From IMG/VR virus record IMGVR_UViG_3300025769_000040, positions 1 to 34,451 of that record: DNA of 34,451 bases. One strand, given 5' to 3'. Both the position numbers and the translations under genes were made by a program. Shown piece by piece: positions 159 to 34,451 of this stretch. Positions within the stretch are counted from its first letter, which is position 1. The number at the start of each line of letters is the position of its first letter. Under the pieces are notes generated by a model. That model made no database searches and was not told where the DNA came from. It saw only the letters and a program-made list of their open reading frames with translations. The stretch comes from a virus.

Positions 159-2992
159 TATGCACCCTCCGCATTAATGTGTGTGGCAATACTTAATACT
201 GTCATAGGATAGGGTAAGTCTTGTCGCACCTCTATTACTTTTTCTCGTTCGTAGTCCGAAGCTACAAAAAATCTTTGTTGTCCTGTCTTAACTTCTAGTG
301 CCTGACCTAGTGAGTCTTGCGTGTCTAGCACAGAGTATGTTGTTAGTTGTTTACCTTGCTCGCCTACAGCCGCACCTTTAGTTTTAAAGAATCGCACAAT
401 AATCTTGGATATAGCTTTAACCCTGCTTTGTGACAGCTTGTTGACTAGGTTAGGCTCGATGGGCATAGGGCGTAGTGTGGACACATAAGGCAGTCCAGCA
501 ATTACTTTAGCACCATACTCGTCTACACTTACCTCACCGCTTGTTACAACTTTGTCGGCAATATAGTTATCGTCTACTAGTACCTGTACTGTTTTACCTT
601 CTAAGTGCGAAAGCCCTGTAACCTTGTTGCTAATTTCTTTAACTGTTATAGCTCTATCTGAGCCATCTGCAAATGAGCCTCCAGCCATTTCGCTTCCTGC
701 ACCCCAGCTAACATCCCAAACAAAGTCTACGCCAGCACCAGCAAAATCATCAGAAGACTCTGTAGTAGGTTGGGTAATTAACCATCTTAAACTAATATAT
801 CTTTGAGAGGGTGTAAATCCAATAAATCCAGGACCTGGTTCAGTGCCTGATCTTGTGTATCTAGTTTGCAAATCATTTAAGTCGCCAAAACCACGATCTA
901 AAAGATAATTACCATCAACTCTAGCTGTTCCACTAACTACAAACTCTTTTACTGGAACTTTAGTTGTTGTACCAATAATTCTTAAATAAAAATTATCAGC
1001 ATCAATTTTTTCTACTTCGTAATTATTGCCTGTTAAGTCGCTGTATGTAGATGACTCAATGTTTACAAAGTCGCCTGTAGAGTATCCGTGACCTGTAATA
1101 TTGATAATTAAATAGTCTTCACTAATATCATTCTTAGCATTACCAGACTTGCTACCAGTACCCTGAAACTCTTTGCCTGAATCTACATACCAATTAAGGT
1201 CTTTGCGTGGATGAAACTTTTCAATGCAGTATTTAGTAACAGGTGTATCCTCACCAGTTGTGCGTTTAACACAAGCCCAGACTGTGTCTTCACCGCTGTC
1301 GTGTATAGATGCGGCACTATAAAACTCTCCGTCTGTTTCTATTCTAGCCCAGCCACGAATTTGTTGACCACGCTCGTAGGTCATAGCACAAGCCTTGCCG
1401 TCATCCTTTATGCACCATACAATCTGGTTAGGTTGCTTTTGAATAAACATTTCTTTTACACCAGAATCAGTTACATCTTCGCTAATAACATTTAAGTCAT
1501 TACCAACAAACGTATCTGAAGTTTGGTCGTACACCAACTCACGCAACTTTAGTCCATCACGTTGCACATATACCACGACATCGTTTGCAATCTCAGCCTG
1601 TAGTGCGGCAGAGCCATACGAGTTTTCTACAAGTGTTGTGATGTTATCTTGTGTAATTAGTGCATCTCTATCCGCAGAACGAACAGATACCGCTGTACCT
1701 GCTGTGCCTAAGAAAAGGTAACGCTTGCCTTCTAGCCACTTGGGTTCTTCAGGCGAGTCGATAGTACGCTTAATCGCATCGGTAGAAAGGCTACCAGTTA
1801 AAAAGTTATATATGTCCCCAAACGCTGATGCAAATAAATCTGCTGGTTGGTCTATAGAACCTGCAAGCCATAGTCTGTTTTCAAAAAATTCTGACGCTGG
1901 GGGAAAGCCACGATAGTCTGAGTAGGCTCCCTCAAGCCAATGTACTGTAGCGTCTGGGTTTGCTTGACCACCTTGAAGCATTGAAACAATAGTCGCAGTA
2001 GCAGTAGTAACCGCTGTGCCTACAGTTGTGCTTACCGATGTAATTTTTACAACACCTTTATGATAAATATTTTCAGCCTCAATACTTGCGTTAATAGTAT
2101 TTGTTGCTATTACAACAGATATTCTAATCTCAGTATTTGCATCTTCGGGTACTGTAGAAGCGTACTTAAAGTTTCTTGCGGTTCCTCCAGTTGTGTCGCC
2201 AATAACAACATAACTTTCCCAACTTCCACCAGCTATACGTCTTTCAATAATAACTGAACCCTTCCAAGTCTCAGATGTTTCAAAGCTCCAGTTTGAAAAA
2301 CTAACATCTAGTGCATCACTTTGTGCTGTTCCATTACTACTAAATGCTACTTCTTTTTTATTTGCGGCTCGTATATGTTCGATACCCCAATGAGAACCTT
2401 CGTGACCCTTGTGGAATATTGCTGTGCTTGCTGTTAAAGTAGTTGTGCCTGTGTAAACATTACTAGGTGCTGACGCATCAATATTAGTTGTAGTATCATT
2501 TATTTCCATTAATGGTGGATACACATAACTAATTTTTTCAATAGTAAATGTAGGAGCAGTTGTTGCTCTTTTAAAGATCATAGCTTCTTTTGTAGGACAG
2601 GTAAGTATAAGTGTATCGTAGCGTCTGTTAAACTGTACTGTACGAAGCTCTGCGGTAGTGTAGTCAATGTTATCTGTTTCGGTTACGCTAACAACTTGAT
2701 CTACACCATTAGCATCTGTGTAATGTACTTTGGCGTAGTCTGTACCCAGCTCGATTACATAACGAATGTCGCTGGAAAAATCAAACTCAATCATACGGGC
2801 TGGATTACTTCCGTCAGTACCAGTTAGTGCTACAAACTCTGAGCCTGCTCTACGCTCTACACCGCCCTGTGGTAATACAAAAAAATTGTCGAGATCACGA
2901 CAACCAATCTTGTAAACTTCAAAGTCTGAGCGACCATCAATGTTGCGAGATAGTTCCCCAGCATTAAACGCCTGTGTGTAATTAATAGCCAT
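158..2992 (-). CDS. Tail tubular protein B (nozzle), T7 gp12-like
   Basis: This 944-residue protein starts with the typical nozzle-protein opening: YTQAFNAGELS, then RSDFEVYKIGCRDLDNFF, then a PQGGVERRAGSEF segment in the first 55 residues. A later ENRLWLAGS segment is also characteristic of the family. T7 gp12 is about 790 residues, so this version is longer, with extra beta-rich sequence. It is expected to form the six-fold tail nozzle below the gatekeeper ring and to bind fibres and receptors. Its start shares TAATG with the stop of tail tube A, and its stop shares TAATG with the gp14-like start. Transcription is leftward as part of the late block downstream of the capsid terminator. Confidence 0.93.
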   Translation of the reverse strand: MAINYTQAFNAGELSRNIDGRSDFEVYKIGCRDLDNFFVLPQGGVERRAGSEFVALTGTDGSNPARMIEFDFSSDIRYVIELGTDYAKVHYTDANGVDQVVSVTETDNIDYTTAELRTVQFNRRYDTLILTCPTKEAMIFKRATTAPTFTIEKISYVYPPLMEINDTTTNIDASAPSNVYTGTTTLTASTAIFHKGHEGSHWGIEHIRAANKKEVAFSSNGTAQSDALDVSFSNWSFETSETWKGSVIIERRIAGGSWESYVVIGDTTGGTARNFKYASTVPEDANTEIRISVVIATNTINASIEAENIYHKGVVKITSVSTTVGTAVTTATATIVSMLQGGQANPDATVHWLEGAYSDYRGFPPASEFFENRLWLAGSIDQPADLFASAFGDIYNFLTGSLSTDAIKRTIDSPEEPKWLEGKRYLFLGTAGTAVSVRSADRDALITQDNITTLVENSYGSAALQAEIANDVVVYVQRDGLKLRELVYDQTSDTFVGNDLNVISEDVTDSGVKEMFIQKQPNQIVWCIKDDGKACAMTYERGQQIRGWARIETDGEFYSAASIHDSGEDTVWACVKRTTGEDTPVTKYCIEKFHPRKDLNWYVDSGKEFQGTGSKSGNAKNDISEDYLIINITGHGYSTGDFVNIESSTYSDLTGNNYEVEKIDADNFYLRIIGTTTKVPVKEFVVSGTARVDGNYLLDRGFGDLNDLQTRYTRSGTEPGPGFIGFTPSQRYISLRWLITQPTTESSDDFAGAGVDFVWDVSWGAGSEMAGGSFADGSDRAITVKEISNKVTGLSHLEGKTVQVLVDDNYIADKVVTSGEVSVDEYGAKVIAGLPYVSTLRPMPIEPNLVNKLSQSRVKAISKIIVRFFKTKGAAVGEQGKQLTTYSVLDTQDSLGQALEVKTGQQRFFVASDYEREKVIEVRQDLPYPMTVLSIATHINAEGA

Positions 2993-3612
2993 TATATAAT
3001 CGGTTGCTCGTTATAACGTGATAAAATAAAGTCACTTTCTTCCATCTCCCAATATTTGTTTTCTAGTGTATCAACGCTACGGGCGGCAGGAAGAACTATC
3101 TGTTCGTACTCTTGTATCAAATTGTTTTGCATTACTTGGTCTAGTTGCATTGGAACTGCTAACTTAATCGCAAGGTTTTGTATTACTGCTCTTGTCAAAA
3201 ATGCGTCTAGCTGGCTTACATCGTCTGGCTTGCTTACATAACAAAGATAAACAGTTTCGTAGTCACAGAGTATTGTACGCCCTTCTACGACCCATTGTGT
3301 GCGGTCATCGTAGGCATCGGCTTTGTCGTACACATTCATTACCCGAATGCAGTCATTGGGTAGTTGGTACTTGTACTTAAATTTAAAAGCAGGGGTTTCG
3401 GTCAACCTAGAAAGCTGTGAGCGTTTTAATGCGCTGTTCCACTTGTATGTGCGTAGTGTTTCTTCTAGTGCCTGATCGAACAAAATGCCGCAAAGTTTTG
3501 CACTTTGAACGACAGCTTCGGAATCAGTTTGATTAATATCAAGAGAGGCAATGGTATCTGCTCCAATCTTGAGGAGAGCGTGATTACATATTTCTACTTT
3601 AGATAAACCCAT
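2992..3612 (-). CDS. Tail tubular protein A (gatekeeper/adaptor), T7 gp11-like
   Basis: This is a 206-residue protein, close to the 196 residues of T7 gp11. It begins MGLSKVEICNHALLKIGA, the usual opening of the family, and contains YQLPNDCIRVMNVYD in its middle. These features mark the adaptor ring that joins the connector to the tail nozzle and retains packaged DNA. A GGAGG ribosome-binding site stands just upstream of the ATG at 3612. The intrinsic terminator of the capsid gene lies immediately before that site, so expression probably depends on read-through past it. The stop overlaps the next start (TAATG). Confidence 0.92.
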   Translation of the reverse strand: MGLSKVEICNHALLKIGADTIASLDINQTDSEAVVQSAKLCGILFDQALEETLRTYKWNSALKRSQLSRLTETPAFKFKYKYQLPNDCIRVMNVYDKADAYDDRTQWVVEGRTILCDYETVYLCYVSKPDDVSQLDAFLTRAVIQNLAIKLAVPMQLDQVMQNNLIQEYEQIVLPAARSVDTLENKYWEMEESDFILSRYNEQPII

Positions 3613-10192: not shown

Positions 10193-10349
10193 GATTTATA
10201 AACTCCACTCCACAGTACGGGCAGTATCTGGGGTCGTTGATGCCCTCATCCCCAATCTCGTGTATAAAGAAATAGTTACAGCAGTTGTAACATTCCATAT
10301 ACGATAGTTCATTTAGCATCTTTAGTATTTCGAACAGGTCGGGGTTCAT
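10179..10349 (-). CDS. Zinc-ribbon protein, 56 aa
   Basis: The ATG at 10349 overlaps the small terminase stop as ATGA. The protein has CYNCC at residues 20-24 and CPYC at 43-46, giving four cysteines in a classic zinc-ribbon arrangement after an N-terminal helix. The stop lies 14 bases inside the next frame. Together with the Cys-rich gene at 9816-9965 it makes two zinc-knuckle proteins packed between the terminase subunits. They may be assembly or transcription accessories, but function is not shown by the sequence. Confidence 0.75.
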   Translation of the reverse strand: MNPDLFEILKMLNELSYMECYNCCNYFFIHEIGDEGINDPRYCPYCGVEFINLEET

Positions 10350-10765
10350 TCGTTTGTTCCTTTGGAACTTGATTCCACTTTATTTGATCGTACCCCTTTG
10401 CGTACTTTTTTTGATTGTACCCCTTTTTTGGTTCCATTCCTTTTCCCATTAGAAGCTCCCTTCTTGTATTGTACCACCTCTATGATTATGTCTTGCTTCT
10501 CCTCACCCAGCCCAGCCAGCTTCGCCAGCTTGTCAGATGCCTGTGCGTTGCCACGCTCGGATTCTGTGAACAGATGCTCTAGGACAGCCTTGCGTAGCCC
10601 CTCTTTGTCCTCCAAGTCTAATCCCGACTCGGATGCCTCCTTCACCTTGTCTTGAGCTTTAGATAGCTTCCTGTACAAACTCTCGAACTCCTGTGACAAA
10701 GCCCACAACTTCTTGTTGTCCCCGTCAGCCTCCTGCAACCTAGCGAATATTTCTTGTGATGTCAT
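10346..10765 (-). CDS. Probable terminase small subunit
   Basis: This 139-residue protein is the first gene of the leftward late block. It has a helical N-terminal half (EIFARLQEADGDNKKLWALS), a central GNAQASDKLAKLAGL segment resembling the helix-turn region seen in small terminases, and a lysine-rich, repetitive, probably disordered tail (KKGVQSKKVRKGVRSNKV) suited to DNA contact. The small subunit recognises phage DNA and regulates the large subunit. The identification rests on position, length and this pattern, so some doubt remains. A TTGACT-type -35 box lies upstream at 10806-10801. Confidence 0.7.
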   Translation of the reverse strand: MTSQEIFARLQEADGDNKKLWALSQEFESLYRKLSKAQDKVKEASESGLDLEDKEGLRKAVLEHLFTESERGNAQASDKLAKLAGLGEEKQDIIIEVVQYKKGASNGKRNGTKKGVQSKKVRKGVRSNKVESSSKGTNE

Positions 10766-11264
10766 AATGTAATGAATACTCTTTGCAAGACTGGATGTAA
10801 AGTCAAATTTTTAAAAAGTTGGTTGAGGTCTAAACGCTAAAAAAATTTCAAAACTCGCTCCGATGCCCCCCCTTCGCATACGCCCCCGCCACACCTTATA
10901 GTAGCACTACAACGAGCGTTGCATTCTGGTCGCACAGGTAGGGGTAGCTCGTTCTGGTTGCACAGATTGGCACAGCATCTGCTCGTGTGTGCGTACGTTG
11001 GGTTGCTAGCAGTCGTCAGCTGTAGGCTCTGAACCCTCGTTGTTTTCCCTATGTATGTACCTCTCTCTGTGTATGTGTATTTCTCTATCTGCTTCTGTAA
11101 CCTGTTGCCTATCAATTACTTACAAAAGATATGTAAAATCGAACCGCACTTAAGTTGTTCATTATCAACGACTTAGCTCATATCGATATAAAAATATCGT
11201 AGGCTATAGAATTTGGTGTGATTTTTTTGTGATTTTTTTTTCGCCCATTTCGACCCCATAAACA
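10766..11264. other. Divergent non-coding region, candidate origin or packaging end
   Basis: There is no convincing gene in this stretch between the leftward and rightward blocks. It holds a C-rich patch near 10870-10890, a 10-base palindrome ATATCGATAT (11180-11189) overlapping a hairpin CGATAT-AAAA-ATATCG (11184-11199), and two long T runs in tandem, each preceded by GTGA (11216-11240). Such palindromes and T tracts are common in origins, bent DNA and promoter upstream elements. In T7-like genomes the terminal repeat also lies beside the early region, so the physical end of the packaged DNA may be here. None of these roles can be assigned from sequence alone. Confidence 0.5.
10778..10806 (-). 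promoter_or_regulatory. Putative late promoter upstream of the small terminase gene
   Basis: The minus strand has TTGACT (10806-10801), then 17 bases and AAGAGT. The last hexamer and its flank (GCAAAGAGTATT) resemble the capsid promoter (GCTAAGACTTAT). The spacer, TTTACATCCAGTCTT, also closely matches that of the fibre promoter, TTTACATAAAGACTT. The -10 is not a good sigma-70 box. This is the natural start of the leftward block. Confidence 0.4.
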
Positions 11265-11299: not shown

Positions 11300-11566
11300 A
11301 TTGTGTCGAGCTTCGAAACCATTCTGATACCTTTTTCATCGTAACGCAACAGCTCGCACATCGGAGCTTAAAACGATTAGCGAAACGGTCACGACACGGT
11401 ACAACAGGTCGGACAGGTGAAAGGCTCACCAACGAGATGCACACTCGGTAAACCGTTAGGATAACGTCAGACTCAACAAGTGCAGGGATTCGAGCCAATG
11501 CCAACGCCAATGAGAGCAAGCCGATCAGTCTGCACAGCGGTCTTAGGATAAACAAAGGAGAAAACG
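11300..11566 (+). promoter_or_regulatory. Structured 5' leader of the early transcript
   Basis: This long untranslated leader contains several perfect inverted pairs: AGCTC/GAGCT (11351-11355 with 11364-11368), GGTGA/TCACC (11416-11420 with 11426-11430) and CGAG/CTCG (11433-11436 with 11444-11447). The last two are enclosed by AACGGT/ACCGTT (11384-11389 with 11452-11457), making a three-way junction. The end of the leader carries GCGGTCTTAGGATAAA (11537-11552), identical to the cleavage-site region of the two downstream hammerhead ribozymes, then AACAAAGGAG. A tandem CCAATG-CCAACG-CCAATG lies at 11495-11512. I do not recognise a known riboswitch or ribozyme in it. Confidence 0.6.
11548..11560 (+). 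promoter_or_regulatory. Repeated early-gene ribosome-binding cassette (ATAAACAAAGGAG)
   Basis: The sequence TAAACAAAGGAG, followed by a short A-rich spacer and ATG, stands before six early genes: 11567, 11858, 12221 (one extra C), 12589, 13054 and 13706. The identity extends well beyond the ribosome-binding core. The first three copies are also preceded by GCGGTCTTAGG. The cassette decides the start at 12589, where an earlier in-frame ATG lacks it. Confidence 0.85.
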
Positions 11567-11791
11567 ATGAAATATTATGCGAAAATAGAGACTGAAAATT
11601 ATCGTTACGATGAATGGTTCGAGGCTGATTCAAATGATGAGGCTGTGGATATGTGTTATGATCTTCAGCGTAAAGTTAAAGACGAAACCGAAGAAAGTGC
11701 GAGGTGTGATTTATGTGTATGGATTAATACAGATGGAAGAAAAACCCTGTATTGGGAGCATATTCACACCACTGATGCAAAATTAGCCTAA
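11567..11791 (+). CDS. Early protein, unknown, 74 aa
   Basis: This is the first gene of the rightward early block. The protein (MKYYAKIETENYRYDEWFEA) looks like a small beta-hairpin/helix fold: an aromatic-rich N-terminus, a helix over DSNDEAVDMCYDLQRKV, then strands with CDLCVWINTDGRK. A full cassette ribosome-binding site precedes the ATG. The last codons, GCC TAA, form the 5' strand of stem I of the hammerhead ribozyme that follows, so the gene end and ribozyme are physically merged. First-expressed small proteins of phages often modify host machinery, but nothing here identifies a target. Confidence 0.85.
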   Translation: MKYYAKIETENYRYDEWFEADSNDEAVDMCYDLQRKVKDETEESARCDLCVWINTDGRKTLYWEHIHTTDAKLA

Positions 11792-11842
11792 CTGATGAGC
11801 TGTAGTGACAGCGAAACCGCAGTGATTGCGGTCTTAGGATAA
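11783..11842 (+). ncRNA. Hammerhead ribozyme A, type I
   Basis: All core elements are present in order. Stem I 5' CCTAA (11787-11791) is followed by CTGATGA (11792-11798), then stem II GCTG/CAGC (11799-11802 with 11809-11812), GAAA (11813-11816), stem III CCGCA/TGCGG (11817-11821 with 11827-11831) with a 5-base loop, the cleavage residues TC (11832-11833), and stem I 3' TTAGG (11834-11838). Stem I may extend by three pairs past a G-A mismatch. Stems II and III are capped and stem I is open, which defines type I. Cleavage is predicted after C11833, leaving the next mRNA with a 5' end at TTAGGATAAACAAAGGAG. The stop codon of the preceding gene is inside stem I. Confidence 0.94.
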
Positions 11843-11857
11843 ACAAAGGAGAAAAAT

Positions 11858-12157
11858 ATGACTAAAGAACAGATGGTGAGCTTGGAAGAGATTCAAATGG
11901 ATGACGCATCGAAGCATTTAGATATTATGCAATCCACACTTAACGACCGAGCGAATATATTGGTAAGATGTGAAACACTTCGGATAAATGGTATGGAGAG
12001 ACATAAAGACGCAGAGCTAGCCCTGTTTATGGGTAGATATAATGCGTCAAAAGACATTTTGTTTCTTTTGGGCGGTGGCAACCTTCTCGACGAGTACAAC
12101 GAGTACGAGAGCAAAAACATCGCAGAAGCTGTGAGGAAAGCTGAAAGACTAGCCTAA
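11858..12157 (+). CDS. Early protein, unknown, 99 aa
   Basis: This small, mostly helical acidic protein (MTKEQMVSLEEIQMDDASKH) has a central LALFMGRYNASKDILFLLGGG segment and a charged C-terminal helix (AEAVRKAERLA). It has no recognised domain. It is flanked by hammerhead ribozymes on both sides, so after processing it would sit on its own short mRNA. That mRNA would carry a defined 5' leader and a 3' end made of ribozyme hairpins. As with the first early gene, the end codons GCC TAA belong to stem I of the following ribozyme. Confidence 0.85.
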   Translation: MTKEQMVSLEEIQMDDASKHLDIMQSTLNDRANILVRCETLRINGMERHKDAELALFMGRYNASKDILFLLGGGNLLDEYNEYESKNIAEAVRKAERLA

Positions 12158-12204
12158 CTGATGAGCCGTAGACGGCGAAACCGCAGGGATGCGGTCTTAG
12201 GATA
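12150..12204 (+). ncRNA. Hammerhead ribozyme B, type I
   Basis: This second complete copy has stem I CCTAA/TTAGG (12153-12157 with 12197-12201), CTGATGA (12158-12164), stem II GCCG/CGGC (12165-12168 with 12173-12176) capped by TAGA, GAAA (12177-12180), stem III CCGCA/TGCGG (12181-12185 with 12190-12194) capped by GGGA, and cleavage residues TC (12195-12196). Relative to copy A, stem II changes a T-A pair to C-G and both loops differ, while every core base is kept. That is covariation, the signature of a conserved RNA structure. Cleavage after C12196 would free the 117-residue gene's mRNA with the same TTAGGATAAA start. Confidence 0.94.
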
Positions 12205-12220
12205 AACCAAAGGAGAAAAT

Positions 12221-12574
12221 ATGTATAAAGAAAAATCACCACTAGAAAAAATACAAGGTATGACTGTTTGGGTTTACGACAACAGTCTAGGAAACTCAAG
12301 CAATGGCGGTCTATCGTCATACAAAACAACCCTAGAGATCGGTAAAGATATCGAGATCGTAGAGGGTGCGTATGAGGGAATTGTTGTAGCTAAGCCTATC
12401 GGAAATCCACCAGAGGGTCATATTGGTTGGATGGCAGGAGGGTGCTTTGTGTCCACGTCAGATAGTCGATGGAGCGATGCTATCGAGCATATGATGGGTC
12501 ACAGATTCTATGGAGCAATACCACTCCACGACCGAAGCGAGTCTCAAGAGCTGTACGATAGAATGTGGAATTAA
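12221..12574 (+). CDS. Early protein, unknown, 117 aa
   Basis: This protein starts MYKEKSPLEKIQGMTVWVYD and is glycine- and serine-rich with likely beta strands (LEIGKDIEIVEGAYEGIVVA). It ends in HDRSESQELYDRMWN. It follows ribozyme B and uses the repeated ribosome-binding cassette. The next gene follows after only 14 bases without a ribozyme, so this gene and the 70-residue one should remain on one message after cleavage. No family is recognised. Confidence 0.82.
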   Translation: MYKEKSPLEKIQGMTVWVYDNSLGNSSNGGLSSYKTTLEIGKDIEIVEGAYEGIVVAKPIGNPPEGHIGWMAGGCFVSTSDSRWSDAIEHMMGHRFYGAIPLHDRSESQELYDRMWN

Positions 12575-12801: not shown

Positions 12802-13053
12802 TAAAGCCTGCCTTGCGGTGCATAGGTTAACCGCCTTCGCCTTAGAGTCTAGGTGTTATCAAAGCTAGATGATATGTAGATTCTTTAAAAGCGATACGAG
12901 TCAAACGGGTTGCGTGATGTCGCTGTAAAGTACAATGCGACCAACTGATGGATGCATCTGCGGTTGGAGTAAAAAGGCTACCTACCCGTGCGATACAAAC
13001 CTAGCGGTGCTTTAGGTTAACCGCTCGATTTTAAATTAAACAAAGGAGAAAAT
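12802..13053 (+). ncRNA. Structured intergenic RNA with a duplicated pseudoknot-like motif
   Basis: This 252-base gap has no gene but many perfect inverted pairs. ACGGGT/ACCCGT (12905-12910 with 12984-12989) encloses GTCGC-TGTA/TACA-GCGAC (12919-12941) and CCAAC/GTTGG (12941-12967, with inner GATG/CATC). The motif CCTNGCGGTGC...AGGTTAACCGC occurs twice (12811-12834 and 13000-13024). In each copy CCT/AGG and GCGGT/ACCGC interleave as in a pseudoknot, or the latter forms a simple hairpin. GCGATAC is also repeated (12891 and 12990). The second copy lies just before the ribosome-binding cassette of the next gene. I do not recognise the class. It could be a regulatory leader, a self-cleaving RNA of another type, or a small RNA. 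Confidence 0.6.
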
Positions 13054-34095: not shown

Positions 34096-34451
34096 TAATC
34101 CTCGCCTCCTATTCCCAATATAGCGGCTTCTGTTACACTGCCTATAAATTCTTGTTGACCCCTTGCTCTAGCAATATTTGCCCCAAGTTGACCTTCATAT
34201 ATTGTTTTTTGTGCTACACTTTCTCCACGAAGTTTTGCGACATCTCTTTGACGTTGTACTTCTAGTAAATCCATTTGCATAGTTATGGCAGAATCAATAA
34301 GACTTTGCAAGTCTGTTCCTGCTATCAATCCACCTCTTTGAAAAACACTCATACGTTGCTGTGCCGCAAACTCACGTTGTTGTTTAACAAGTCGTTTAGA
34401 TTGAGCTTCTACTGCATCTGCTTGTGCTTTAGCATTTATACGAGCTACCCT
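34095..34451 (-). CDS. Internal virion protein, T7 gp14-like (C-terminal part; continues at base 158 across the join)
   Basis: The frame enters from the right end and stops at 34095, overlapping the start of the next gene. Across the 47-bp overlap it is continuous with the ATG at 158. An internal ATG at 34352 (MSVFQRGGLIAGTDLQSLID) is not the natural start. This part is a long amphipathic helical region (MQMDLLEVQRQRDVAKLRGE) ending AAILGIGGED. It is part of one 155-residue protein, the smallest of the three ejection proteins. Confidence 0.78.
   Translation of the reverse strand, partial: RVARINAKAQADAVEAQSKRLVKQQREFAAQQRMSVFQRGGLIAGTDLQSLIDSAITMQMDLLEVQRQRDVAKLRGESVAQKTIYEGQLGANIARARGQQEFIGSVTEAAILGIGGED
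34405..34451. repeat. Terminal 47-bp direct repeat, right copy
   Basis: This stretch is identical to bases 1-47 and marks the circular join. It should be counted once when the genome is closed. Confidence 0.93.

Follow-up and report, generated by a model that had tools for sequence, protein, structure and literature searches.

Two hammerhead motifs in series between small early genes of a phage raise the question of whether they are functional ribozymes and, if so, what their cleavage would do for the genes around them. The DNA analyzed here (the window) is an entire virus record of 34,451 bases, the first 47 of which (1 to 47) are identical to the last 47 (34405 to 34451). Since identical ends of this kind are what a circular or complete assembly should show, the record is probably closed (circular), i.e., a complete genome. 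It encodes a head-tail connector of the podovirus kind and a capsid protein (both Pfam), a DnaB-like helicase, and a terminase with at most 35% identity to that of any named phage.

Two type I hammerheads in an early gene block

A block of small genes begins at 11567 and runs rightward into replication genes. One hammerhead separates ORF1 from ORF2 and the other ORF2 from ORF3, as follows.

11539 to 11564, + strand: GGTCTTAGGATAAACAAAGGAGAAAA, a third exact copy of the hammerhead 3' part and leader; precedes ORF1 and is not embedded in a hammerhead
11567 to 11791, + strand: ORF1, 74 aa, no family match; TAA stop (11789 to 11791) is the inner part of hammerhead 1 stem I
11787 to 11838, + strand: hammerhead ribozyme 1, type I (structure scan; R1 covariance model; Rfam HH9 below threshold)
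11787 to 11791 and 11834 to 11838, + strand: hammerhead 1 stem I, CCTAA/TTAGG
11792 to 11798, + strand: hammerhead 1 core CTGATGA
11799 to 11812, + strand: hammerhead 1 stem II
11813 to 11816, + strand: hammerhead 1 GAAA
11817 to 11831, + strand: hammerhead 1 stem III
11832 to 11833, + strand: hammerhead 1 U16.1 and C17, predicted cut after 11833
11834 to 11857, + strand: leader 1, 24 nt after the predicted cut, TTAGG and then A-rich with a AAAGGAGA ribosome-binding site, ahead of ORF2
11858 to 12157, + strand: ORF2, 99 aa, no family match, between the two hammerheads; TAA stop (12155 to 12157) within hammerhead 2 stem I
12153 to 12201, + strand: hammerhead ribozyme 2, type I (structure scan; R1 model; minimum-energy fold)
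12153 to 12157 and 12197 to 12201, + strand: hammerhead 2 stem I, CCTAA/TTAGG
12158 to 12164, + strand: hammerhead 2 core
12165 to 12176, + strand: hammerhead 2 stem II
12177 to 12180, + strand: hammerhead 2 GAAA
12181 to 12194, + strand: hammerhead 2 stem III
12195 to 12196, + strand: hammerhead 2 U16.1 and C17, predicted cut after 12196
12197 to 12220, + strand: leader 2, 24 nt after the predicted cut and equal in length to leader 1, AAAGGAGA ribosome-binding site ahead of ORF3
12221 to 12574, + strand: ORF3, 117 aa, PHROG 6045, unknown function, following leader 2

Further along the early block, a 250-nt gap (12802 to 13053) holds no clear gene and gives only a preQ1-II match at chance level (E = 2.9). 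Outside the block, a stretch of about 35 nt (10800 to 10834) is 85 to 95% conserved in most terminase relatives, with little conservation around it; it sits upstream of a small gene (10346 to 10765) and has a weaker counterpart at 11182 to 11204. Several contigs (e.g., L011, L012, L015, L033, and L034) start 20 to 60 nt from this stretch, which may therefore adjoin a genome end or packaging site, or it may be a promoter.

Each element spans 49 to 52 nt and has all parts of a type I hammerhead, with stem I open and stems II and III closed. Copy 1 reads, in order, CCTAA, CTGATGA, GCTGTAGTGACAGC, GAAA, CCGCAGTGATTGCGG, TC^, and TTAGG (the caret marks the predicted cut), and copy 2 reads CCTAA, CTGATGA, GCCGTAGACGGC, GAAA, CCGCAGGGATGCGG, TC^, and TTAGG. 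The core is perfect in both (C3 U4 G5 A6 N7 G8 A9 and G12 A13 A14, with A15.1-U16.1), and the cleavage nucleotide H17 (not G) is C17 in both. The stem sequences, among them a compensatory T-A to C-G change in stem II, were by sequence and structure scan as the initial annotation had given them, and its predicted cuts after 11833 and 12196 agreed with both. That the two are complete type I hammerheads in tandem was confirmed by sequence, by the structure scan, and by an independent covariance model.

The covariance-model check that the initial annotation had proposed came out differently with different models. At Rfam gathering thresholds, neither copy was matched in the window, and scores below threshold were 23 and 17.9 bits for HH9 (E = 0.0098 and 0.44) and 24.5 and 22.7 bits for RAGATH-1-hammerhead. 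The phage-specific R1 model, built on 29 other viral hammerheads (none from the window), hit both, with 54.4 bits for copy 2 (rough E = 2.2e-11) and 45.0 bits for copy 1 (rough E = 4.9e-9); the third-best place in the window reached only 15.7 bits. Core, stems, and cut site of RF02275 (HH9), RF02276 (type II), and RF03152 (RAGATH-1) are the same as those of the window copies, but when Rfam release 15 was run against 14 loci, no model reached its gathering score on any of the roughly 48 phage type I copies that 13 of them contain, whereas type II copies of relatives matched RF02276 above threshold. Since none of the type I copies in the test loci is picked up by these models and the phage-specific model scores strongly, the missing Rfam match reflects how the Rfam models are limited, and such a match does not define a hammerhead chemically; Rfam-based annotation now overlooks the tested type I phage copies. 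Among named phages, blastn with hammerhead 1 and its leader returned chance-level matches only, and an exact search of viral contigs for the common 22-nt 3' half plus leader returned none.

For copy 2, the hammerhead is the predicted minimum-energy fold. For copy 1 it is not (−15.6 kcal/mol for the hammerhead versus −17.8 kcal/mol), and the predicted pairing as a hammerhead is about 6% for stem II and most of stem III and 14 to 19% for stem I, in free-energy models, which take account neither of tertiary contacts nor of folding during transcription. To cleave fast at low magnesium, a type I hammerhead needs loop II to make a tertiary contact with the stem I side; no specific contact of this kind was found, and stem lengths were near constant across the set (stem I, 5 or 6 bp; stem II, 4 bp). 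A role as transcription terminators was ruled out, as stem III is not followed by a U-run and a terminator scan was empty at both sites. Also ruled out was a hidden third hammerhead at 11400 to 11566, where neither the structure scan nor the covariance model found one; the likeness of 11400 to 11537 to hammerhead 2 was not significant (43 of 500 shuffles reached the same level). The copy at 11539 to 11564 may be a relic or merely a common leader.

Covariation, placement, and carriers

Hundreds of similar hammerheads are present in other phages. A fetch pattern consisting only of the core and the inner three stem I pairs matched at least 120 stretches of viral contigs, and a structure scan of the fetched sequence (about 1.7 Mb) gave 209 type I matches, compared with 0 in the reversed sequence; together with the independent model scores, this argues that the window copies are not chance. 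Covariation was judged at stem positions outside the fetch pattern, over 158 distinct copies from viruses. All 158 form outer pair 1 of stem I and 157 form outer pair 2 (random dealing expects 68 and 64), the stem II pairs form in 151, 152, and 149, and stem III pair 1 forms in 158; the rows of a second covariation alignment were chosen for pairing, which makes it weaker evidence. With one substitution allowed, the core was perfect in 193 of 195 structures (the remaining two had U4>C), although most loci were fetched by the consensus core and only 72 distinct type I copies are independent of the fetch pattern. N7 was the freely varying core position, and position 17 was C in 181 cases, A in 12, and never G or T. 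Covarying stems combined with a nearly invariant catalytic core indicate selection for RNA cleavage and not for DNA identity, which rules out that the elements serve solely as a DNA repeat or recombination site. Type II scan matches within long genes (L053, 6546 to 6636; L227, 12476 to 12561) and a type III match overlapping a type I copy (L074) were rejected as scan artifacts.

Placement was counted for the 228 type I copies with enough flank. An ATG-initiated ORF began 10 to 60 nt after the predicted cut in 192 of them (median, 25.5 nt; quartiles, 22 to 29 nt), compared with 35 when the opposite strand was read, and an upstream ORF ended within −30 to +25 of the ribozyme start in 190. Both held for 175 copies, versus 5% of random positions drawn from the same DNA. 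Most upstream stop codons lie in or adjoin stem I, and in both window copies the TAA of the upstream gene is part of it. Two or more type I copies were found at 48 loci (the window and 47 others); one viral record has an array of 13 copies and another of 9.

A consensus-like phage hammerhead query matched pelagiphages and Flavobacterium phages. Cultured carriers of type I are the Flavobacterium phage elemoC and the pelagiphages HTVC019P, HTVC131P, and HTVC022P, in which the copies are unannotated:

HTVC019P (L226), 2947 to 3009: type I hammerhead
HTVC131P (L228), 2657 to 2721: type I hammerhead
HTVC022P (L229), 2296 to 2360: type I hammerhead

The pelagiphage copies, which show compensatory stem I changes, belong to the early region and precede a MarR-like regulator and integrase or a small ORF. 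Bacterial genomes with the pattern were mostly Legionella, with some Bacteroidota. One 5.8-kb contig binned as Aliivibrio carries nine copies whose A/T-rich leaders have no clear ribosome-binding site, presumably as in Bacteroidota. Type III hammerheads were also seen (L227, 5908 to 5962; L132; L138; L126), several of them just before a gene start and some beside a type I copy.

Homologous genes with differing hammerhead types or none

The initial annotation had tied its reading to the presence of the motif in close relatives; several carry type I and/or type II hammerheads at early junctions, and others carry none. The closest hammerhead-bearing relative (L032; terminase 88% identical) has seven hammerhead junctions, three consecutive ones with type I and the four flanking ones with type II, and three of its type II copies reach the Rfam gathering score. 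Over 49 nt, window copy 2 is matched exactly by two type I copies of L032. No homologues of ORF1 to ORF3 were found in this relative, and no relatives of ORF2 were found among viral contigs. Within the window operon, the element is present at the first two or three junctions only, and many relatives have none at all, so processing is not essential.

Homologues of ORF3 (58 to 73% identical) are preceded by type I (the window and L237), by type II (L233), or by no hammerhead (L232 and L234); where it is absent, the gene starts in a tight overlap or after a short spacer. The same three states were found in a second gene family, with type I in L238, type II in L032, and none in L024. After the cut, the ribozyme body is left on the upstream RNA in type I and on the downstream RNA in type II. 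Since the side of the body swaps between the types, the property that is kept would be a cut between stop and start and no particular 5' or 3' hairpin. At the level of sequence comparison, the occurrence of type I, type II, or neither at homologous genes thus suggests that what is selected is cutting between the stop and the start; this replacement argument is the main addition to the published picture.

Probable processing at gene junctions and its alternatives

The two hammerhead ribozymes probably act as processing sites at gene junctions. The earlier reading of an mRNA-processing system rather than stray motifs is supported by structure, covariation, core conservation, stop-ribozyme-start placement, and the replacement of type I by type II; exact placement between genes and the hundreds of copies in other phages suggest that they probably split a long phage message into single-gene messages. 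Each ribozyme in the early polycistronic transcript would fold between the upstream stop and the downstream ribosome-binding site and cut itself after C17 during transcription, yielding gene-length mRNA pieces. The downstream gene would thereby receive a 24-nt leader with a 5'-OH end, and on the upstream RNA the ribozyme body would remain, forming a structured 3' terminus that carries a 2',3'-cyclic phosphate. Cleavage in the window phage, these RNA ends, and an effect on expression are what we infer. The likeliest benefit would be context-free, independent expression and stability of small, often exchanged early genes, with the fixed leader insulating each gene from its upstream context. Stability is favored because RNase E, a 5'-monophosphate-dependent enzyme, makes little use of 5'-OH ends and cuts 5'-hydroxylated substrate poorly (PMC4191395); the same authors mention, as unpublished, that E. 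coli apparently has no kinase for the 5'-OH end made by a hammerhead. With the stop codon lying within stem I, a terminating ribosome may block or delay folding, so that cleavage may be partial. The more stable competing fold predicted for copy 1 is a weak point of the processing explanation.

Somewhat more tentatively, ribozymes that are unrelated in layout (type I, type II, and occasionally type III) could be interchangeable natural insulators, the cut between stop and start freeing a new early gene from its neighbors and leaving a standard, decay-resistant 5'-OH leader. If true, this would be a general rule of operon design in phages of several bacterial phyla.

Tandem type I or type III hammerheads, as in retrozymes and viroids, can release unit-length RNA. 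By analogy, the window pair might excise the ORF2 RNA (11834 to 12196), which would be circularized when its 5' TTAGG docks with its own 3' CCTAA-hammerhead and is religated. Consistent with this, both window copies have the same CCTAA/TTAGG stem I, all stem I sequences are identical within 18 of the 48 multi-copy loci, and the type I body retains a ligation-suited 2',3'-cyclic phosphate end (PMC3088659). However, stem I differs between copies, each pairing with itself, in 30 of the 48; neighboring copies thus usually differ, which rules out a circular-RNA system as the general purpose. The swap to type II at homologous junctions moves the body to the other product, spliced or circular products were sought and not found by Perreault et al. 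(PMC3088659), and the window, in contrast to retrozymes and viroids, is without repeat units or a retroelement, all of which make circularization quite improbable here. Rather less far-fetched, but still unlikely, is cleavage with little effect, the hammerheads being selfish or neutral sequences on exchangeable cassettes or homology patches that aid recombination of early-region genes. Identical or near-identical hammerheads do lie beside unrelated genes in related phages, and about half of the checked homologous gene pairs, in a set biased to hammerhead-bearing loci, have a hammerhead on one side only. Against it stand the strong covariation and almost invariant catalytic core, which reflect selection for RNA cleavage, and the strict stop/start placement; type II, whose layout cannot be aligned with type I, is not expected of a homology patch at the same junction.

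Lastly, copy 2 could be active with copy 1 held in its competing fold or blocked by ribosomes that terminate in stem I, the pair forming a translation-coupled switch that cuts only while translation of the upstream gene is poor. The predicted misfolding of copy 1 and the position of most upstream stops in or next to stem I would fit such a switch, but the overlap may be mere compact packing, TAA belongs to the common stem I sequence, and the energy models ignore tertiary contacts and co-transcriptional folding; we regard it as very improbable indeed.

The proposed processing at gene junctions has precedents. Clustered hammerheads flank genes in prophages, examples of them cleave in vitro and in E. 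coli, and Perreault et al. proposed in 2011 that they process phage transcripts into operon- or gene-length mRNAs (PMC3088659). Hammerhead clusters of phages are thus already in print, as is the processing role as a proposal; a 2017 review still lists what prokaryotic hammerheads do as an open question (PMC6155905). Among the open-access papers searched, no newer survey of phage hammerheads covering such arrays was found. The window shares with the prophage clusters (PMC3088659) several close hammerheads around single small genes of phage origin but belongs to a different phage group, known mostly from metagenomes, and its cleavage is predicted; the present analysis goes beyond them in the stop/cut/start geometry over hundreds of copies and in the alternation of type I, type II, and no hammerhead at homologous gene starts. 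The HHphage hammerhead of haloviruses HF1 and HF2 lies 13 nt before an early start codon, and an mRNA 5' end maps no more than 3 nt from the cut (PMC3088659). It is likewise just upstream of an early gene start codon but is a salt-adapted variant in an archaeal virus, in single copy before the first gene, whereas the window has type I copies with an ordinary core between genes. The synthetic insulator RiboJ, also a ribozyme that cuts itself ahead of the ribosome-binding site in a bacterial 5' untranslated region, standardizes the leader and in E. coli increased transcript levels about twofold and protein levels two- to tenfold (PMC6206723); it is engineered and placed after promoters, whereas the window copies are natural and lie between operon genes, and the likeness is an analogy only.

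The window pair is well supported as a further case of the published phage hammerhead clusters, and the comparative result makes the function testable: type I, type II, or neither at the same gene start constitutes a natural comparison in which the ribozyme variants share only the cut between stop and start. With carriers among cultured SAR11 and Flavobacterium phages, such tests are possible in grown phages.
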